Source: Elusimicrobiota bacterium
GTDB taxonomy: Bacteria; Elusimicrobiota; Elusimicrobia; UBA1565; UBA9628
DNA length: 40,435 nucleotides
Assembly (NCBI GenBank): GCA_030696455.1
Contig: JAUYSH010000030.1
Location: 1 to 40,435 of the forward strand
Direction of reading: 5' to 3'
In this document: positions 10,083 through 32,698 of the stretch, piece after piece
How the letters are laid out: every line of letters begins with the position of its first letter
How positions within the stretch are numbered: the first letter of the stretch is position 1
The notes under the pieces: model-generated
Databases searched by the model: none
What the model saw: the letters and a program-made list of their open reading frames with translations, nothing else
Told to the model about the DNA's origin: nothing
Program-made: the position numbers and the translations under genes

Positions 10083-10829
10083 CTATTCCGAGATCAGGGT
10101 CGCGCGGAAGAACTCGCGGTTGAGCCGCGCGATATTGCTGATCTTGATGTCCTTGGGGCAGGCGGCCTCGCACTCGTACTCGTTCGTGCAGTGGCCGAAG
10201 CCTTCGGCGTCCATCGCCGCGCGCATGGCGAGCACGCGCTTCTCGCGTTCTGGCATGCCTTGCGGAAGCAAGGCATACTGGCTGACCTTGGCGGCGACGA
10301 ACAGCATCGCCGAGGCGTTGGGGCAGGCGGCGACGCAGGCGCCGCAGCCGATGCACGAGGCCGCGTCCATCGCCTTCTCGGCCTTGTCGTGCGGGATGAG
10401 GATCGCGTTGGCCTCCCCCGCGCCGCCGGTGTTGGTGGAGACGAAGCCCCCGGCGGCCTGGATGCGGTCGAAGGAGGAGCGGTCCACGACGAGGTCCTTG
10501 ACGATGGGAAAGGCCTTGGAGCGGAAGGGCTCGACGGTGACGACGTCGCCGTCCTTGTAGCGGCGCATGTGGAGCTGACAGGTCGTCGCCCCCTTATCCG
10601 GCCCGTGCGCCCGGCCGTCGATGACGAGGTCGCACATGCCGCAGATGCCCTCGCGGCAGTCGCTGTCGAAGGCGAGCGGGTCCTCGCCCCTGGCGATGAG
10701 CTGCTCGTTGAGGGTGTCGAGCATCTCGAGGAAGGACATCTCGGGCACGATGCCCTTGACCGTGTATTCCACGAGAGCGCCCGGCTGGGACGCGTTCTTC
10801 TGACGCCAGACCTTCAGAGTGATGTTCAT
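10083..10829 (-). CDS. Fumarate reductase/succinate dehydrogenase iron-sulfur subunit
   Basis: A 248-residue subunit that passes electrons between the flavoprotein and the membrane cytochrome. The N-terminal ferredoxin domain holds the [2Fe-2S] ligands C58, C63, C66 and C84 ([10 protein letters not shown] and TTCQL). The C-terminal domain holds the [4Fe-4S] and [3Fe-4S] ligands: C159, C162, C165, C169 ([12 protein letters not shown]) and C214, C220, C224 ([15 protein letters not shown]). The second residue of the [4Fe-4S] block and the flavoprotein type resemble the Bacteroidota/Chlorobi-like branch of one-cytochrome enzymes. It starts one base after the flavoprotein stop. Direction of catalysis is discussed under the FNR-type site. 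Confidence 0.96.
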
Positions 10830-10830
10830 G

Positions 10831-12740
<1,910 letters not shown>

Positions 12741-12744
<4 letters not shown>

Positions 12745-13457
12745 TTGGAGCCTCCTTCCGTCGGGCAGCAGGCCAGGGCGGGTTCGTGGATGAAACCGAA
12801 ATAAACGGGCAAGGACGCGAAGCCCGCGAAGATCAGGAAGGCGAACGCGAGGCCGGCCTTCCGAATGAGGGGCGTGTAGCGGGGGTGATTGAAGCCGAAG
12901 GTCTGGATCGCGCTTTGCACGCCGTGCGAGAGGTGCAGCCCCACGCCGCCGACGGCGAGGACGTAGAAGATCGAGTACCAGGGGTTGGCGAACCAGCCGA
13001 GCACGTGGGCGAACAGGTCGACGCCCTTCGGGCCGCCGAGCTGGTACTTGAGGGTCGCGACGTGGATGATGACGAAGACGAGGATCAAGGTCCCCGTGAG
13101 CGCCATCGTGCGCGAGCCCGGCGTGCGCGCGCCCTTGCCGGTGTAGACTTGGTAGCCCTCGGGGCGGGCGGCGCGGTTGGCGAGCGTGGCCCGGACGGAG
13201 AGGACGATGTGGATCAGGAAGAGCCCGACCAGGCCGGCCTCGGCCAGCGGCAGCAGCGGGTTGCTCACCAGCGCCTCGGCGTAGCGGTTGAAGGTCTCTC
13301 CGCCGACGAACATCAGCAGGTTGCCGAGCAGGTGGGCGACGAGGAACCCGCACAGGAGCACTCCCGCGGCGGCGACCATGATCTTTTTGCCGATCGAGGA
13401 CTCGAGGAATTCGAAGATGCGGCAGGGCTTAGAGGCGCAGTCGGGGGTGGCTTCCAT
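12741..13457 (-). CDS. Fumarate reductase/succinate dehydrogenase cytochrome b subunit
   Basis: A 238-residue membrane anchor with five transmembrane helices, the form that carries two haems b and exchanges electrons with the quinone pool. Likely haem ligands are H42 (FLVAHLLGN), H83 ([11 protein letters not shown]), H132 ([11 protein letters not shown]) and H175 (GLHLSHGVQ), one per helix and spaced like those of the Wolinella enzyme. The gene starts the five-gene operon: cytochrome b, flavoprotein, iron-sulfur subunit, GGQ protein, DUF2203. There is no Shine-Dalgarno site; TAGAAT lies 6 bases before the ATG and a perfect FNR-type palindrome is centred 41.5 bases upstream of it. Two-haem anchors are used by both menaquinol fumarate reductases and some succinate:menaquinone reductases. 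Confidence 0.95.
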
Positions 13458-13463
13458 GGCCCG

Positions 13464-13469
13464 ATTCTA
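13464..13469 (-). promoter_or_regulatory. -10 element of the fumarate reductase operon
   Basis: TAGAAT on the minus strand, 6 bases before the ATG of the cytochrome gene. No good -35 box is seen, as expected for a promoter that needs an activator bound at -41.5. Confidence 0.7.
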
Positions 13470-13491
13470 TCAAGGGAACGGGGGCCGGAAG

Positions 13492-13505
13492 TTGATTTAG
13501 ATCAA
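13492..13505. promoter_or_regulatory. FNR-type regulator binding site
   Basis: TTGATTTAGATCAA is a perfect match to the FNR/Dnr consensus TTGAT-N4-ATCAA. Its centre (13498.5) is 41.5 bases upstream of the A of the cytochrome b start codon and 32 bases from the centre of the -10 box, the geometry of class II activation. It implies activation under low oxygen (FNR) or by nitric oxide (Dnr/NnrR-type). Relative to the divergent binding-protein gene the site is at about -104.5, too far for direct class II control. Confidence 0.85.
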
Positions 13506-13567
13506 ACAATCCCGACACGCCGGCGTCACCCGGACGGCGTCGTGAAATTACACTCTGCGGCATGAAT

Positions 13568-13596
13568 TTGCAGGCCGCGCGCCATTAAGGTATCTT
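13568..13596 (+). promoter_or_regulatory. Promoter of the oligopeptide-binding protein gene
   Basis: TTGCAG (13568-13573), a 17-base spacer and TATCTT (13591-13596) are followed by GGCGGA and the ATG at 13603. The start site is expected at the A of the ATG; GGCGGA may look like a ribosome site but would lie at or before +1. Confidence 0.65.
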
Positions 13597-13602
13597 GGCG
13601 GA

Positions 13603-15330
13603 ATGATCACCGCCCTCCTGCTGGCCGCCGCCCTCGGCGCCTCCGCCGCCGAGACCGTCAAGCACCCGGACACCTTCACCAACCTCGAGATCGGCGAGGT
13701 CGGCAGCCTCGACCCCGTCTTCCCCTATGACGGTTCAAGCCAATCGGTGATCCAGAACGTCTATGAGACCGTCATCGCCTTCAAGGGCTCGTCGCTTTCG
13801 GAATACGAGCCGCGGATCGCGGAGAAGGTGCCTTCCCTTAAAAACAAGCTGATCTCGGCCGATGGACGCACCTACCGCTTCCCGATCCGCAAGGGGGTCA
13901 AGTTCCACGACGGCACGGAGGTCACCCCTGAGGACGTGCGGTACTCCCTGCTGCGGTTCATGATCACGGACCGGGCGGGGGGGCCCTCGGCCCTCCTGCT
14001 GGAGCCGATCGCGGGCGTGCCCTCGACCCGGAATTCCTCGGGCACGATCACTTTGGATTACGCCTCGCTCGAGAAGGCCGTGGTTGTGAACGGCAACGAC
14101 GTGGTGATCTCGTTGCCGCGCCCCTTCGGGCCATTTCTTGGGATCATGGCGAGATGGTCGTATGTCATGTCCAAGCCTTGGGCGATCGCCAACGGCGAAT
14201 GGGACGGGGCGGCGGCGACCTGGAAGAACTACAACGATCCGCCCAAGGAGAAATCCCATTTTTTCGAGCATATGAACGGCGCCGGCCCCTTCAAGCTCTC
14301 GCGCTGGGATAGGACGGGACGCTATGTTCTGCTGGCTCGGCACGACGCTTACTTCCGCGGGCCCGCGAAGCTCCGGCAGGTCCTGGTCAAGGCCGTGCCC
14401 GAGCTCAACACGCGCAAGCTGATGCTGCAGGCCGGAGACGCGGACCTCATCGAGACGCCGCGGCCGTACGCGTCCCAGCTCACGGGCATCCCCGGCGTGA
14501 CCTTGCTCGACGGGCTCCTGCGCCTGTCGACCGACCCGGCTTTGTTCTTCACGGTCAAGATCAACCCCGTCGCCAATCCCGACATCGGCTCGGGCAAGCT
14601 CGACGGCGAGGGCATCCCGCCGGATTTCTTCTCGGACCTCGACGTCCGGCGCGGCTTTTCCTACGCCTTCGACTACGAGGCGATCATGCGCGACACGTTC
14701 AAGGGCACGGCCGCGCGCGCTCTCGGACCGATCCCGCCCAGCGTCCCGGGCTACGACGCGAAGCAGCCGCGCTACACGCACGACCTCAAGAAGGCCGAGG
14801 CGCACCTGCGCAAGGCGCATGCAGGACGTTTATGGGAGAAGGGGTTCCGCTTCACGCTCACCTACAACACCGGCTCCGAGAACCGCGAGGCGGCGGCGCA
14901 GATCCTCAAGAAGAACGTCGAAAAAATGAACCCGAAGTTCCGCGTCGACCTGCGCGGCGTGGACTGGGCGAACTTCCTCGATAAGGCCCAACGCCGGCTC
15001 ATGCCGTTGTTCGCGCGCGGCTGGCTCGCCGATTATCCCGACGCGCACAACTTCATCTACGCCTTCTATCACTCCCAAGGGCGCTATCCGTCGGCCCAGG
15101 GCTACGCGAGCCCGGAGCTCGACGCGCTCATCGAGAAGGCCGCGGGCGAGCCCGCGCCCGCCAAGCGCGCGGCGATGTATAGGAAAATCCTCGCCAAGGG
15201 CTTCGAGGAAGCTCCCGCGATCTTCACCGTGCATCCGGCGGGCGTGTACGGCATGCGGACCTGGGTCAAGAATTTCGTCGATAATCCCGTGAACCTCGGG
15301 ATCTACTACTACCCCATCGAGAAGCGGTGA
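13603..15330 (+). CDS. ABC-type peptide/nickel family substrate-binding protein (SBP_bac_5)
   Basis: A 575-residue periplasmic binding protein with signal peptide MITALLLAAALGASA. It follows the extracytoplasmic family 5 pattern: an opening EIGEVGSLDPVFPYDGSS, the signature RKGVKFHDGTEVTPEDVRYS, a mid-region LQAGDADLIETPRPYASQL, VRRGFSYAFDYEAIMRD, and a C-terminal block GWLADYPDAHNFIYAFY. Such proteins deliver oligopeptides, dipeptides or metal chelates to an ABC permease. No permease or ATPase genes are adjacent, so it is an orphan binding protein here. No lipobox cysteine is present, so it should be soluble in the periplasm. The nth gene overlaps its stop codon (GTGA), linking the two in one transcript. 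Confidence 0.9.
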   Translation: MITALLLAAALGASAAETVKHPDTFTNLEIGEVGSLDPVFPYDGSSQSVIQNVYETVIAFKGSSLSEYEPRIAEKVPSLKNKLISADGRTYRFPIRKGVKFHDGTEVTPEDVRYSLLRFMITDRAGGPSALLLEPIAGVPSTRNSSGTITLDYASLEKAVVVNGNDVVISLPRPFGPFLGIMARWSYVMSKPWAIANGEWDGAAATWKNYNDPPKEKSHFFEHMNGAGPFKLSRWDRTGRYVLLARHDAYFRGPAKLRQVLVKAVPELNTRKLMLQAGDADLIETPRPYASQLTGIPGVTLLDGLLRLSTDPALFFTVKINPVANPDIGSGKLDGEGIPPDFFSDLDVRRGFSYAFDYEAIMRDTFKGTAARALGPIPPSVPGYDAKQPRYTHDLKKAEAHLRKAHAGRLWEKGFRFTLTYNTGSENREAAAQILKKNVEKMNPKFRVDLRGVDWANFLDKAQRRLMPLFARGWLADYPDAHNFIYAFYHSQGRYPSAQGYASPELDALIEKAAGEPAPAKRAAMYRKILAKGFEEAPAIFTVHPAGVYGMRTWVKNFVDNPVNLGIYYYPIEKR

Positions 15331-18579: not shown

Positions 18580-20396
18580 GGCTTCCTCCGGGCGGAGCGC
18601 AGGAACTTCTCGAGGCCCTCGACGAGCGCACGGGCGAGCTCGTCGCGGAACGCGGCGTCGTTGAGCAGGGCCTCCTGCTCGGGAAAGATCATGTAGGCGT
18701 TCTCCACGAGGATCGCGGGCATCGCGCTTTGCCGGGCGACGAGCAGGTTGCCCCAGCGTAGGCCTTCGTCGGCCAGCTTGATGCGTCCGCGATAGGCTTC
18801 GTGCACCGCGCGGCCCAGCGACAGGCTTTGAGGGTGATAGTAGAAGATGCTGAAGCCGCGGGGCTTGGCGAAGGGATTCTCGCCGTCGGGAAGGGCGTTG
18901 TTGTGGATGCTCACGAAGAGGTCTGCGCCCCGCTCGACGGCCTGCTTGGGCCTGTCCACGAGGGAGACCTCGTGCAGCGGATCGGCGCGCGACATCAGCA
19001 CGTTCGCGCCCGCGCGCTGAAGGCGGCCCTTCGCGGCGAGGGCGATCGCGTAGTTGGCGTCCATCTCGCGCGTTCCGAGGGGCCCCGTCGAGCCCGTCGC
19101 CGACGGCATGTGGCCGGGATCGAGCATGATGGTGACGCCCGCGAACGGCTTGTACTCGGAGATCCTCGGGGGGCGGCGGACCTCCAGGCGCAGGGAGGCG
19201 CCGTCGAAGGTCGGCCACCAGCCCCAGGCGGTCTCGCCCTTCTTGAGGATGACGGTCACGGCGACGACGTCGGTCGCCTCCTGCCGCCAACGGACCTCCG
19301 AGATGAAGTCGGGGGCGTCGTTGACCGCCCAGTTCGTATGGCCGACGGCGTTGTAGAGCCGGACCGTCAGGGCGTCGAGCCCGGGGGAGGGCTCGACATC
19401 GAAGGCGACCTTCTCCGATACGCCGATCTTCACGGCCGCTCCGAGCGCGGTCCGGGAGACGCCGATCGTGCCGGTCACCGCGCGGGGGGGCGGGCCGGAG
19501 GAGAGGTCGACGTCCTTGGCGTCGACCCAGCCGGACAGCGACTCGGAGAGGCGAACGCGAAGGGAACTGTTCTCGCGCCCGGTCACCAGCAGCCGGGTTC
19601 CCGCCAGAGGGAAGGCGAGGAAGCCGTTGGCGGGTCCGGTTTTGACGCCCACGTATCCGGCGGCGGCGTCCTTGACGGTCGCGATCATGGAGTTCTTCGC
19701 CGAGGCCGAGACGAGGGGCGCGCCCTTGGCCTTCGCGGAGCCCCAGCCAGGGTCCAGCTCGTATTCCACGTGGGCCGGAGTGATCTCCTCGCCGAGGCCG
19801 ATCTGCCGCGTTCCTTCATAGTAGCCGAGCGCCGCGTTGGTCTCGCGCATATCCTGCCAAGCTCCCTTGCCCACGCGGAAGCGCGCGGGCTTGCCGGGCG
19901 TGCCCTTCATCCGGACCGTCAGCCAGTCTCCGGCGCGCAGGTCGAGGTCGAAGCGCGGCGTCAGAGAGTCGGGGTCGATGGCGAGCTCGCCCGCGGCCGC
20001 AGGCGTGACGGGCAAAGGCACGAGTATCCGGCGTTCGGCCGTCGCGGTCGTGACGGAGGACAGGGCGAGCTCGCCGCGGAAGGTGAACGTCCCCGGCGAG
20101 ATGGGGAGGAACGCGAGAAAGCCTCCGTCCCGATGGACCTGCACGGGGACGCCGTTGATCTTGAAGGGCGCGGTCGCCGGCGAGACCGAGCCCAGGATGA
20201 ACTCCGCGTTGGCCGCGAGCGGCATGTTCTCCGGCGGCCAGATGAAGATGATGGGCTCGGTCGACCGCGTGGGGTACAGGGGAGGCTCGGCGGCGACGCG
20301 GGGCTGTTCGAGCCGCGCTCCGCCCCGAGGCCGGTCGGCGGCCGCGGCGGACAAGGCCGAAGCCAGCAGCAGGGCGGCCGCGAGCGCTCTTATCAT
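18576..20396 (-). CDS. N-acetylmuramoyl-L-alanine amidase (Amidase_3) with long N-terminal region
   Basis: A 606-residue exported protein with signal peptide MIRALAAALLLASALSAAAA. Residues 45-410 are beta-rich with several probable Ig-like or SH3-like modules (PPENMPLAANAEFILGS, AGYVGVKTGPANGFLAFPLA). The C-terminal Amidase_3 domain (about 418-600) has zinc ligands H429 (MLDPGHMPS), E444 (TREMDANYA) and H498 (SIHNNALPDG), and the catalytic Glu565 in ILVENAYMIFP. It cleaves the bond between MurNAc and the stem peptide in peptidoglycan. It heads a five-gene operon with coupled starts. Its own -10 box (TAGAAT) ends 7 bases before the ATG and no Shine-Dalgarno site is visible. Confidence 0.92.
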   Translation of the reverse strand: MIRALAAALLLASALSAAAADRPRGGARLEQPRVAAEPPLYPTRSTEPIIFIWPPENMPLAANAEFILGSVSPATAPFKINGVPVQVHRDGGFLAFLPISPGTFTFRGELALSSVTTATAERRILVPLPVTPAAAGELAIDPDSLTPRFDLDLRAGDWLTVRMKGTPGKPARFRVGKGAWQDMRETNAALGYYEGTRQIGLGEEITPAHVEYELDPGWGSAKAKGAPLVSASAKNSMIATVKDAAAGYVGVKTGPANGFLAFPLAGTRLLVTGRENSSLRVRLSESLSGWVDAKDVDLSSGPPPRAVTGTIGVSRTALGAAVKIGVSEKVAFDVEPSPGLDALTVRLYNAVGHTNWAVNDAPDFISEVRWRQEATDVVAVTVILKKGETAWGWWPTFDGASLRLEVRRPPRISEYKPFAGVTIMLDPGHMPSATGSTGPLGTREMDANYAIALAAKGRLQRAGANVLMSRADPLHEVSLVDRPKQAVERGADLFVSIHNNALPDGENPFAKPRGFSIFYYHPQSLSLGRAVHEAYRGRIKLADEGLRWGNLLVARQSAMPAILVENAYMIFPEQEALLNDAAFRDELARALVEGLEKFLRSARRKP

Positions 20397-31351: not shown

Positions 31352-32698
31352 ATGACGAGAAGGGCTTTGGCGCTTCTCCTCGTTCTCGCGTTGACCGCCC
31401 CGGACGCCGGGGCGGTCGCTTACAACGACGTCCTGCCGGGCGCGAGGGCGATGGGCATGGGAACCGCGTATTCGGCGATCGCCGACGACGCGTTCGGCCT
31501 GTTCTATAATCCCGCGGGCACGGCGAACACGCCCTACATCCAGGGCGCGGGCACGGTCGGACGCATGCTGTCTCCGAAGGGCCCCCTGTCCTTCGCCACC
31601 GCCGCCTATCTTCGCCCCTACGAGCAGATCAATACCGCCACGATCGGAGCGGCGTATCACCTCGAGCGCCAGCGCAACGGCGGCGACATCGACTCGATCC
31701 TCCTCAACTACAGCCAGGAGTACAAGGTCCGTCAGATTCCGCTGTCGAAGCCGCTCAAGCTCGGGGTCAACGCGAAGATCGTCAACTCAGATCCGGGGAC
31801 CGGCGCCGGCGGCAAGCTCGGGCTCGGCTTCGACGCCGGCGTGATCGCGCGCTCGAACATGGGCCTCTCGGCCGGCATCGTGCTCAGCGACCTCGTCACC
31901 GCCGCGGCGTACCCGCGTCCGGGGATCACGCTCGCGACGGCTTACACCTGGGACCGGCGCTACACGATCGCCGGGGATTTTCGCGTGCGCGGCGGCCTCG
32001 CCGAGTTCTATCCCGGCGTCGAGGCGTCCTTCCATCAAGGCCTCCTGCGGGTGCGCGGCGGCAAGGGCTTGACGCTCGACGGCGTGCATACCTTCGCGTT
32101 CGGCCTCGGGCTGAACTTCTCGCCGATGATCCTCGACATCGCGATGTCCCTGCCGACCGGCGGGCTCAACCGCTCGGGCGGCGGCTACCAGGGAACGTTC
32201 ACCTACCGCTTCGGCGCCCCGTCCTTCACCGGGCAGTTCGTGGGCCAGGCGGCGGCGGACGCCGAAACGCTGCGCGGAGACCTGTCGAGCCTGACGGAGA
32301 AGCAGCGGACGATGTCCCAGCAGGCCGGCACCGCGGAGACCAACAAGGCCGCGGCGGAAGCCCAGCTCCGCGTGCTGGAAAAACGCGTGGCCGAGGCGCA
32401 GGACGAGTACCGCGCCCTGCTCAAGCGCAACGACGAGCTCGAGTACCGCGCCGCGGAGAAGGCCGCGGGCCTGCTCGGCCGGCCTAAGCCCGTCGAGGTC
32501 AAGGTCCGCGCGCGGCCCGCGCCTCCCGCCTGGCCCAAGCGCCACGTCGTCAAAGCAGGCGACACTTTGCGCACGATGGCTCGGCAGTATTACGGCGATC
32601 CCAACCAGTGGGAAAGGATATACGACGCGAACCGCGAAAAGGTCGAACGCGGTCTGCCCGCCGAGGGCGCGTCCCTCCTGATCCCCGCGCCGAACTGA
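31352..32698 (+). CDS. PorV/UPF0164-like outer-membrane protein with coiled coil and LysM
   Basis: A 448-residue protein with signal peptide MTRRALALLLVLALTAPDAGA. Residues 24-290 match the PorV/UPF0164 pattern: an opening LPGARAMGMGTAYSAIADDA, FGLFYNPAGTAN, and barrel strands such as KLGVNAKIVNS and FAFGLGLNFSPMILDIAMSL. Residues about 300-370 are a coiled coil (KAAAEAQLRVLEKRVAEAQD). The last 50 residues are a LysM domain (RHVVKAGDTLRTMARQYYGD, then WERIYDANR), which binds peptidoglycan. The fusion would pin a barrel in the outer membrane to the cell wall. It heads a unit with the receiver-like/propeller gene and the PilZ-like gene. Confidence 0.85.
   Translation: MTRRALALLLVLALTAPDAGAVAYNDVLPGARAMGMGTAYSAIADDAFGLFYNPAGTANTPYIQGAGTVGRMLSPKGPLSFATAAYLRPYEQINTATIGAAYHLERQRNGGDIDSILLNYSQEYKVRQIPLSKPLKLGVNAKIVNSDPGTGAGGKLGLGFDAGVIARSNMGLSAGIVLSDLVTAAAYPRPGITLATAYTWDRRYTIAGDFRVRGGLAEFYPGVEASFHQGLLRVRGGKGLTLDGVHTFAFGLGLNFSPMILDIAMSLPTGGLNRSGGGYQGTFTYRFGAPSFTGQFVGQAAADAETLRGDLSSLTEKQRTMSQQAGTAETNKAAAEAQLRVLEKRVAEAQDEYRALLKRNDELEYRAAEKAAGLLGRPKPVEVKVRARPAPPAWPKRHVVKAGDTLRTMARQYYGDPNQWERIYDANREKVERGLPAEGASLLIPAPN

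Follow-up and report, generated by a model that had tools for sequence, protein, structure and literature searches.

A perfect FNR-type box at class II spacing before a predicted leaderless complex II operon in Elusimicrobiota

The window analysed here, the whole stretch of 40,435 nucleotides from an Elusimicrobiota bacterium, raises the question of how its complex II operon is controlled and whether the distance from an upstream palindrome to the first start codon can tell where transcription begins. On the minus strand from 13457 to 10083, the family models identify a type B complex II whose genes run C-A-B; gene order and family models are both those of known type B (b558) complex II operons, sdhCAB/frdCAB (Table 1). 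A genome scan with the flavoprotein gave matches of at most 74% identity, scattered across many phyla.

Table 1. Coordinates of the complex II promoter, operon and divergent gene in the window
Feature	Position	Strand	Remarks
FNR-type box	13492..13505	+ strand letters	TTGATTTAGATCAA; palindrome, centre 13498.5, at -41.5 from the predicted start
-10 hexamer TAGAAT	13464..13469	-	TGA directly before it (13472-13470) gives an extended -10, TGATAGAAT; 22 bp to box
Cytochrome b ATG, predicted transcription start	13455..13457	-	leaderless; 6 nt from -10; start inferred
SdhC/FrdC, cytochrome b558 family subunit of complex II	12741..13457	-	PF01127; TIGR02046, 148 bits (cut-off 96)
SdhA/FrdA flavoprotein	10831..12750	-	NF005749, fumarate reductase/succinate dehydrogenase flavoprotein, 1162 bits; start codon approximate
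SdhB/FrdB iron-sulphur subunit	10083..10829	-	NF005746, 417 bits
Family 5 extracellular solute-binding protein (divergent)	13603..15330	+	leaderless-type -10 TATCTT at 13591-13596

The FNR-type box and the predicted leaderless start

A sequence-only reading had described a perfect FNR-type site whose centre is separated from the A of the cytochrome b start codon by 41.5 bases and from the middle of the -10 hexamer by 32, and the coordinates confirmed both distances. On the minus strand the box reads TTGATCTAAATCAA, a perfect TTGATN4ATCAA palindrome, with its centre 41.5 bases from the A at 13457 and 32.0 bases from the TAGAAT centre at 13466.5. These values are those of FNR class II promoters (approximately 41.5 from the start, or 32 from the -10 centre), the start here being predicted. 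A consensus scan of positions 13300-13700 found no sigma-70 -35/-10 pair, as is expected of an activator-dependent promoter.

In E. coli, 19 of the 23 FNR-activated promoters with a known start have their site at -41.5 ± 4, and the class II promoters of narG, dmsA, nirB and frdABCD share the TTGATN4ATCAA box centred near -41.5 (PMC3688515). Fumarate reductase is thus also among the targets of E. coli FNR, although its site there is weak (TCGATctcgTCAAA) and lies at -45.5, in comparison to the perfect box at -41.5 in the window (PMC3688515). The arrangement looks like a low-oxygen switch of a known kind, and a further difference from the E. coli system is that the mRNA is here predicted to be leaderless. 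No earlier description of a leaderless fumarate reductase operon under FNR class II control was found in the open literature searched.

A dinucleotide Markov model built on 450 kb of the window's genome predicted 0.0055 perfect boxes per 40,435-base window, and the genome (4.01 Mb) held five perfect boxes against 0.55 expected under this model. When up to two mismatches were allowed, the window contained 16 sites in comparison to 3.2 ± 1.8 in shuffled sequences. The other four perfect sites in the genome were considered as class II promoters and rejected by their placement, with the exception of that on contig C125, which has a class II layout (TATAGG, 24-nt leader). One of the rejected sites lies 3' of the fnr-like gene on contig C135, one overlaps the start of an ORF (C29; L028, 4304-4317) and one is placed 7 bp from a TAAAAT hexamer (C144; L030, 4118-4131); the last two positions would suit repression.

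The leaderless start that had been predicted for the operon gained support apart from the box spacing. Among 208 long, high-GC3 ORFs called by a simple ORF filter in 450 kb of the genome, TANNNT preceded an in-frame ATG with a gap of 6 nt in 20 cases and of 7 nt in 12 (32 together), in comparison to about one case per gap at gaps of 0-5 and 13-29. This peak suggests that many genes of this genome are leaderless, and the sdhC promoter, with its hexamer 6 nt before the ATG, fits this class. Several further genes of the window show a -10-like hexamer 6-8 nt upstream of their ATG, for example those starting at 20396, 4037 and 35574 (minus strand) and at 31352 and 35575 (plus strand). A -10 directly before the ATG is likewise a common gene layout in the leaderless expression of Deinococcus-Thermus, whereas here an FNR box lies upstream of it as well, at class II distance (PMC12340547).

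Conservation of the box to -10 spacing in relatives

The sdhC promoter was taken from 17 of 18 same-genus relatives irrespective of whether a box was present; in the remaining relative (G002) the gene was split between contigs and its promoter came from a motif scan. All genomes compared were partial assemblies. TTGAYN4RTCAA was found exactly 22 bp from TAGAAT in 13 of the 17 unselected promoters, and G002, where the gap to TAAAAT is 22 bp and the leader 43 nt long, brings this to 14 of 18 relatives. The box of G014 is 24 bp from the -10, and no box was present at the sdhC promoters of G004, G007 and G011. Outside the genus, a relative from the same family (G019) and one from the same order (G043) also have the box at 22 bp. 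The TG and TAGAAT elements were identical in all 14 aligned same-genus promoters, and the conserved columns were those of TTGAY/RTCAA and TGN-TAGAAT, with mostly low conservation in the flanks.

The distance from the -10 to the ATG was variable. Leaderless relatives have either 6 nt (G006, G015, G001 and G013) or 7 nt (G008, G016 and G003) between the two, the latter placing the box at -42.5 from the A, while seven others (G010, G018, G009, G017, G012, G005 and G002) have a leader of 35-44 nt, in most cases with a recognisable Shine-Dalgarno sequence, and still keep the gap of 22 bp between box and -10. The expectation that orthologous operons would carry the same site at the same distance therefore held for the gap to the -10 in 14 of 18 relatives, and failed for the three relatives lacking the box and for the distance to the ATG.

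As the 22-bp gap is unchanged above leaders of 35-44 nt, the spacing is anchored to the -10 and not to the ATG, so that the 41.5 bases to the start codon are a consequence of the leaderless layout and no independent proof of it. The sequence-only reading had used the box in this way and had made the class II reading of the distances conditional on transcription starting at the ATG; neither argument can be kept, since 32 bp to the -10 is already a class II spacing, whatever the position of the start codon. These relatives amount to a natural experiment in which promoter geometry is separated from the mRNA leader, the activator box holding its place relative to the -10 as leaders are gained or lost, and they correct the tempting inference that the ATG distance proves a leaderless start.

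A shared promoter module and a candidate regulator

The combination TTGAYN4RTCAA-N21-23-TANNNT was present in all 19 genus genomes, and the reversed control gave one match. For box-to-TANNNT gaps of 10-40 in these 19 genomes, 41 cases were counted at 22 bp, 9 at 23 and 22 at 24 (three of the 24-bp cases being re-parsed 22-bp sites with TATAGG), in comparison to a mean of 1.9 at other gaps. Besides frdCAB/sdhCAB, the module in the window's own genome precedes korAB-sucCD, encoding a 2-oxoacid:ferredoxin oxidoreductase (KOR) and succinyl-CoA ligase (C74), and a leaderless gene for GTP-PEPCK (C88); in family relatives it precedes genes for pyruvate:ferredoxin oxidoreductase (PFOR), pyruvate phosphate dikinase (PPDK), citrate synthase and PEPCK. 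This target list comes from a single motif definition, and the KOR and PEPCK loci were found via the motif and not independently of it. Identities were assigned by family models, with SucD and the PEPCK of family relatives assigned by reading the sequence. From the shared module we infer co-regulation of the genes that carry it.

The module also precedes genes at two further loci of this genome. An enoyl-reductase-like SDR gene with a leaderless ATG (C75; L277, 1065-2030) has TAGAAT as its -10 and an FNR box 24 bp upstream of it; the same arrangement was seen in G016 and G018, and the same family occurs behind boxes in G012 and G029. The perfect box on C125 lies 22 bp before TATAGG and precedes a gene for a secreted protein without a Pfam match (L029, 3885-4598), and G020 has a similar promoter and gene (L268).

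The sequence-only reading depended on a Crp/Fnr-family regulator being encoded in the genome, and five proteins with a Crp-type HTH were found, including an FNR-like protein (P0005, contig C135) with a CX2CX5C motif and a further cysteine, a candidate fourth cluster ligand, a set comparable to that of E. coli FNR. C17-X2-C20-X5-C26 and C69 are invariant in 30 orthologues, as are E203, V206 and R207 of the recognition helix. This helix reads E-T-T-V-R, keeping the E and R of the classical E-x-x-S-R and differing from E. coli FNR in having V for S. The best NCBIfam match of P0005 was Fnr (NF008365), with 59.7 bits against a cut-off of 228. On the grounds of the replaced serine, P0005 is classed from its sequence as FNR-like and not as FNR proper. 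Its match to solved FNR begins at residue 14, in comparison to near residue 50 for most other Crp-family chains. The cluster ligands of FNR are numbered C20/C23/C29 and C122; by alignment offset, C17/C20/C26 of P0005 would fall on the first three, whereas C69 would not fall on C122, which puts the fourth cysteine elsewhere in the sequence than in E. coli FNR. The AlphaFold model had a mean pLDDT of 70.8, with residues 1-25 below 50 and the cysteine region poorly modelled. Orthologues of P0005 were found in 18 of the 19 genus genomes. The incomplete assembly G005 had no close fnr orthologue, yet kept the sdhC (L045) and PEPCK boxes, which may reflect an assembly gap or another regulator in its place.

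One or two FNR boxes were also found immediately 3' of fnr in most orthologous genus loci and in several family loci, where they precede a gene for a small secreted peptide with CxWPNxC repeats that matched no Pfam family over the cut-off. This gene lies at 2176-2427 on the minus strand of L023 (G000:C135) and occurs 3' of fnr in L173-L198, with tandem paralogues in L174-L176. In many of these loci a degenerate third box, TTGACN4CTCAT, accompanies the one or two tandem boxes, with a spacing of 22-23 bp to the -10.

Activation of the operon and direction of the enzyme

The reading that best fits these sequences, and one that we hold with good confidence, is class II activation of the operon by an oxygen-labile FNR-like protein. 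Under low oxygen P0005, the most likely regulator, would carry an Fe-S cluster on C17/C20/C26 and a fourth ligand and would bind the box as a dimer. From the class II position (approximately -41.5) it would contact RNA polymerase at the extended -10, replacing a -35 box, and transcription would start at or beside the A of the ATG to give a leaderless frdCAB/sdhCAB mRNA. The operon would belong to a small regulon with korAB-sucCD, GTP-PEPCK and the enoyl-reductase-like enzyme, and in relatives with PFOR, PPDK and citrate synthase, which would fit an anaerobic branch from PEP through oxaloacetate, fumarate, succinate and succinyl-CoA to 2-oxoglutarate.

The palindrome could be a chance match or could serve the divergent solute-binding protein gene, as it sits in a divergent intergenic region, at -104.5 from the ATG of that gene, which has its own -10. 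We give this hardly any credence, because relatives keep the spacing to the sdhC -10 even when their leaders differ, and because the box/-10 module was also found before unrelated genes. The box may otherwise be real and of class II but be read by another of the five Crp-type HTH proteins, P0006 (C52), a DNR/FixK-like protein without an N-terminal cysteine cluster, in which case the signal would not be oxygen sensed via an Fe-S cluster. P0006 has the canonical E-x-x-S-R motif (EAVSR) in its recognition helix; its close orthologues occur, however, in only 7 of the 19 genus genomes and are missing from G001, G003, G010 (one contig), G017 and G018, although the box is retained in each of these, whereas P0005 is nearly universal in the genus and has conserved boxes beside its own gene, making P0006 an improbable reader.

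Control by an FNR-like protein had also been taken to favour fumarate reduction as the main direction of the enzyme. This direction is plausible, with indirect support from the putatively co-regulated genes, and is less than settled given that the genome encodes two haem-copper oxidase subunits I and a third PF00115 protein of 775 aa. In stretches around the oxidase genes no FNR box (≤1 mismatch) was found near those on C129, C75 and C16, and one was found near that on C1. The enzyme may instead be mainly a succinate dehydrogenase (SDH) in an oxidative (ferredoxin-linked) TCA cycle, raised by the regulator for low-oxygen respiration. Along with the oxidases, it is consistent with this that a single cytochrome b (sdhC) match was found in the genome, that the NCBIfam models matched here are common to SDH and fumarate reductase (FRD) and do not tell them apart, and that an oxidative direction is conceivable for korAB-sucCD and citrate synthase. 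We regard it as a serious but tentative possibility, as FNR-type activation fits the anaerobic reductive branch better, and so does a module shared with the genes of KOR and PFOR, which are ferredoxin enzymes, and with those of PEPCK/PPDK.

In summary, with class II activation by the FNR-like protein as the preferred reading, a wider proposal for which the case is about evenly balanced is that of a regulon specific to this lineage, where a diverged FNR-like sensor would activate many leaderless genes of anaerobic reductive carbon metabolism (PEPCK, complex II and KOR-SucCD) via a rigid module of box, 22 or 24 bp and extended -10, with the leader gained or lost below an unchanged promoter and the CxWPNxC peptides by fnr as a conserved target. 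Such a regulon would provide a testable wiring diagram of how oxygen controls the central carbon metabolism of an uncultured lineage.
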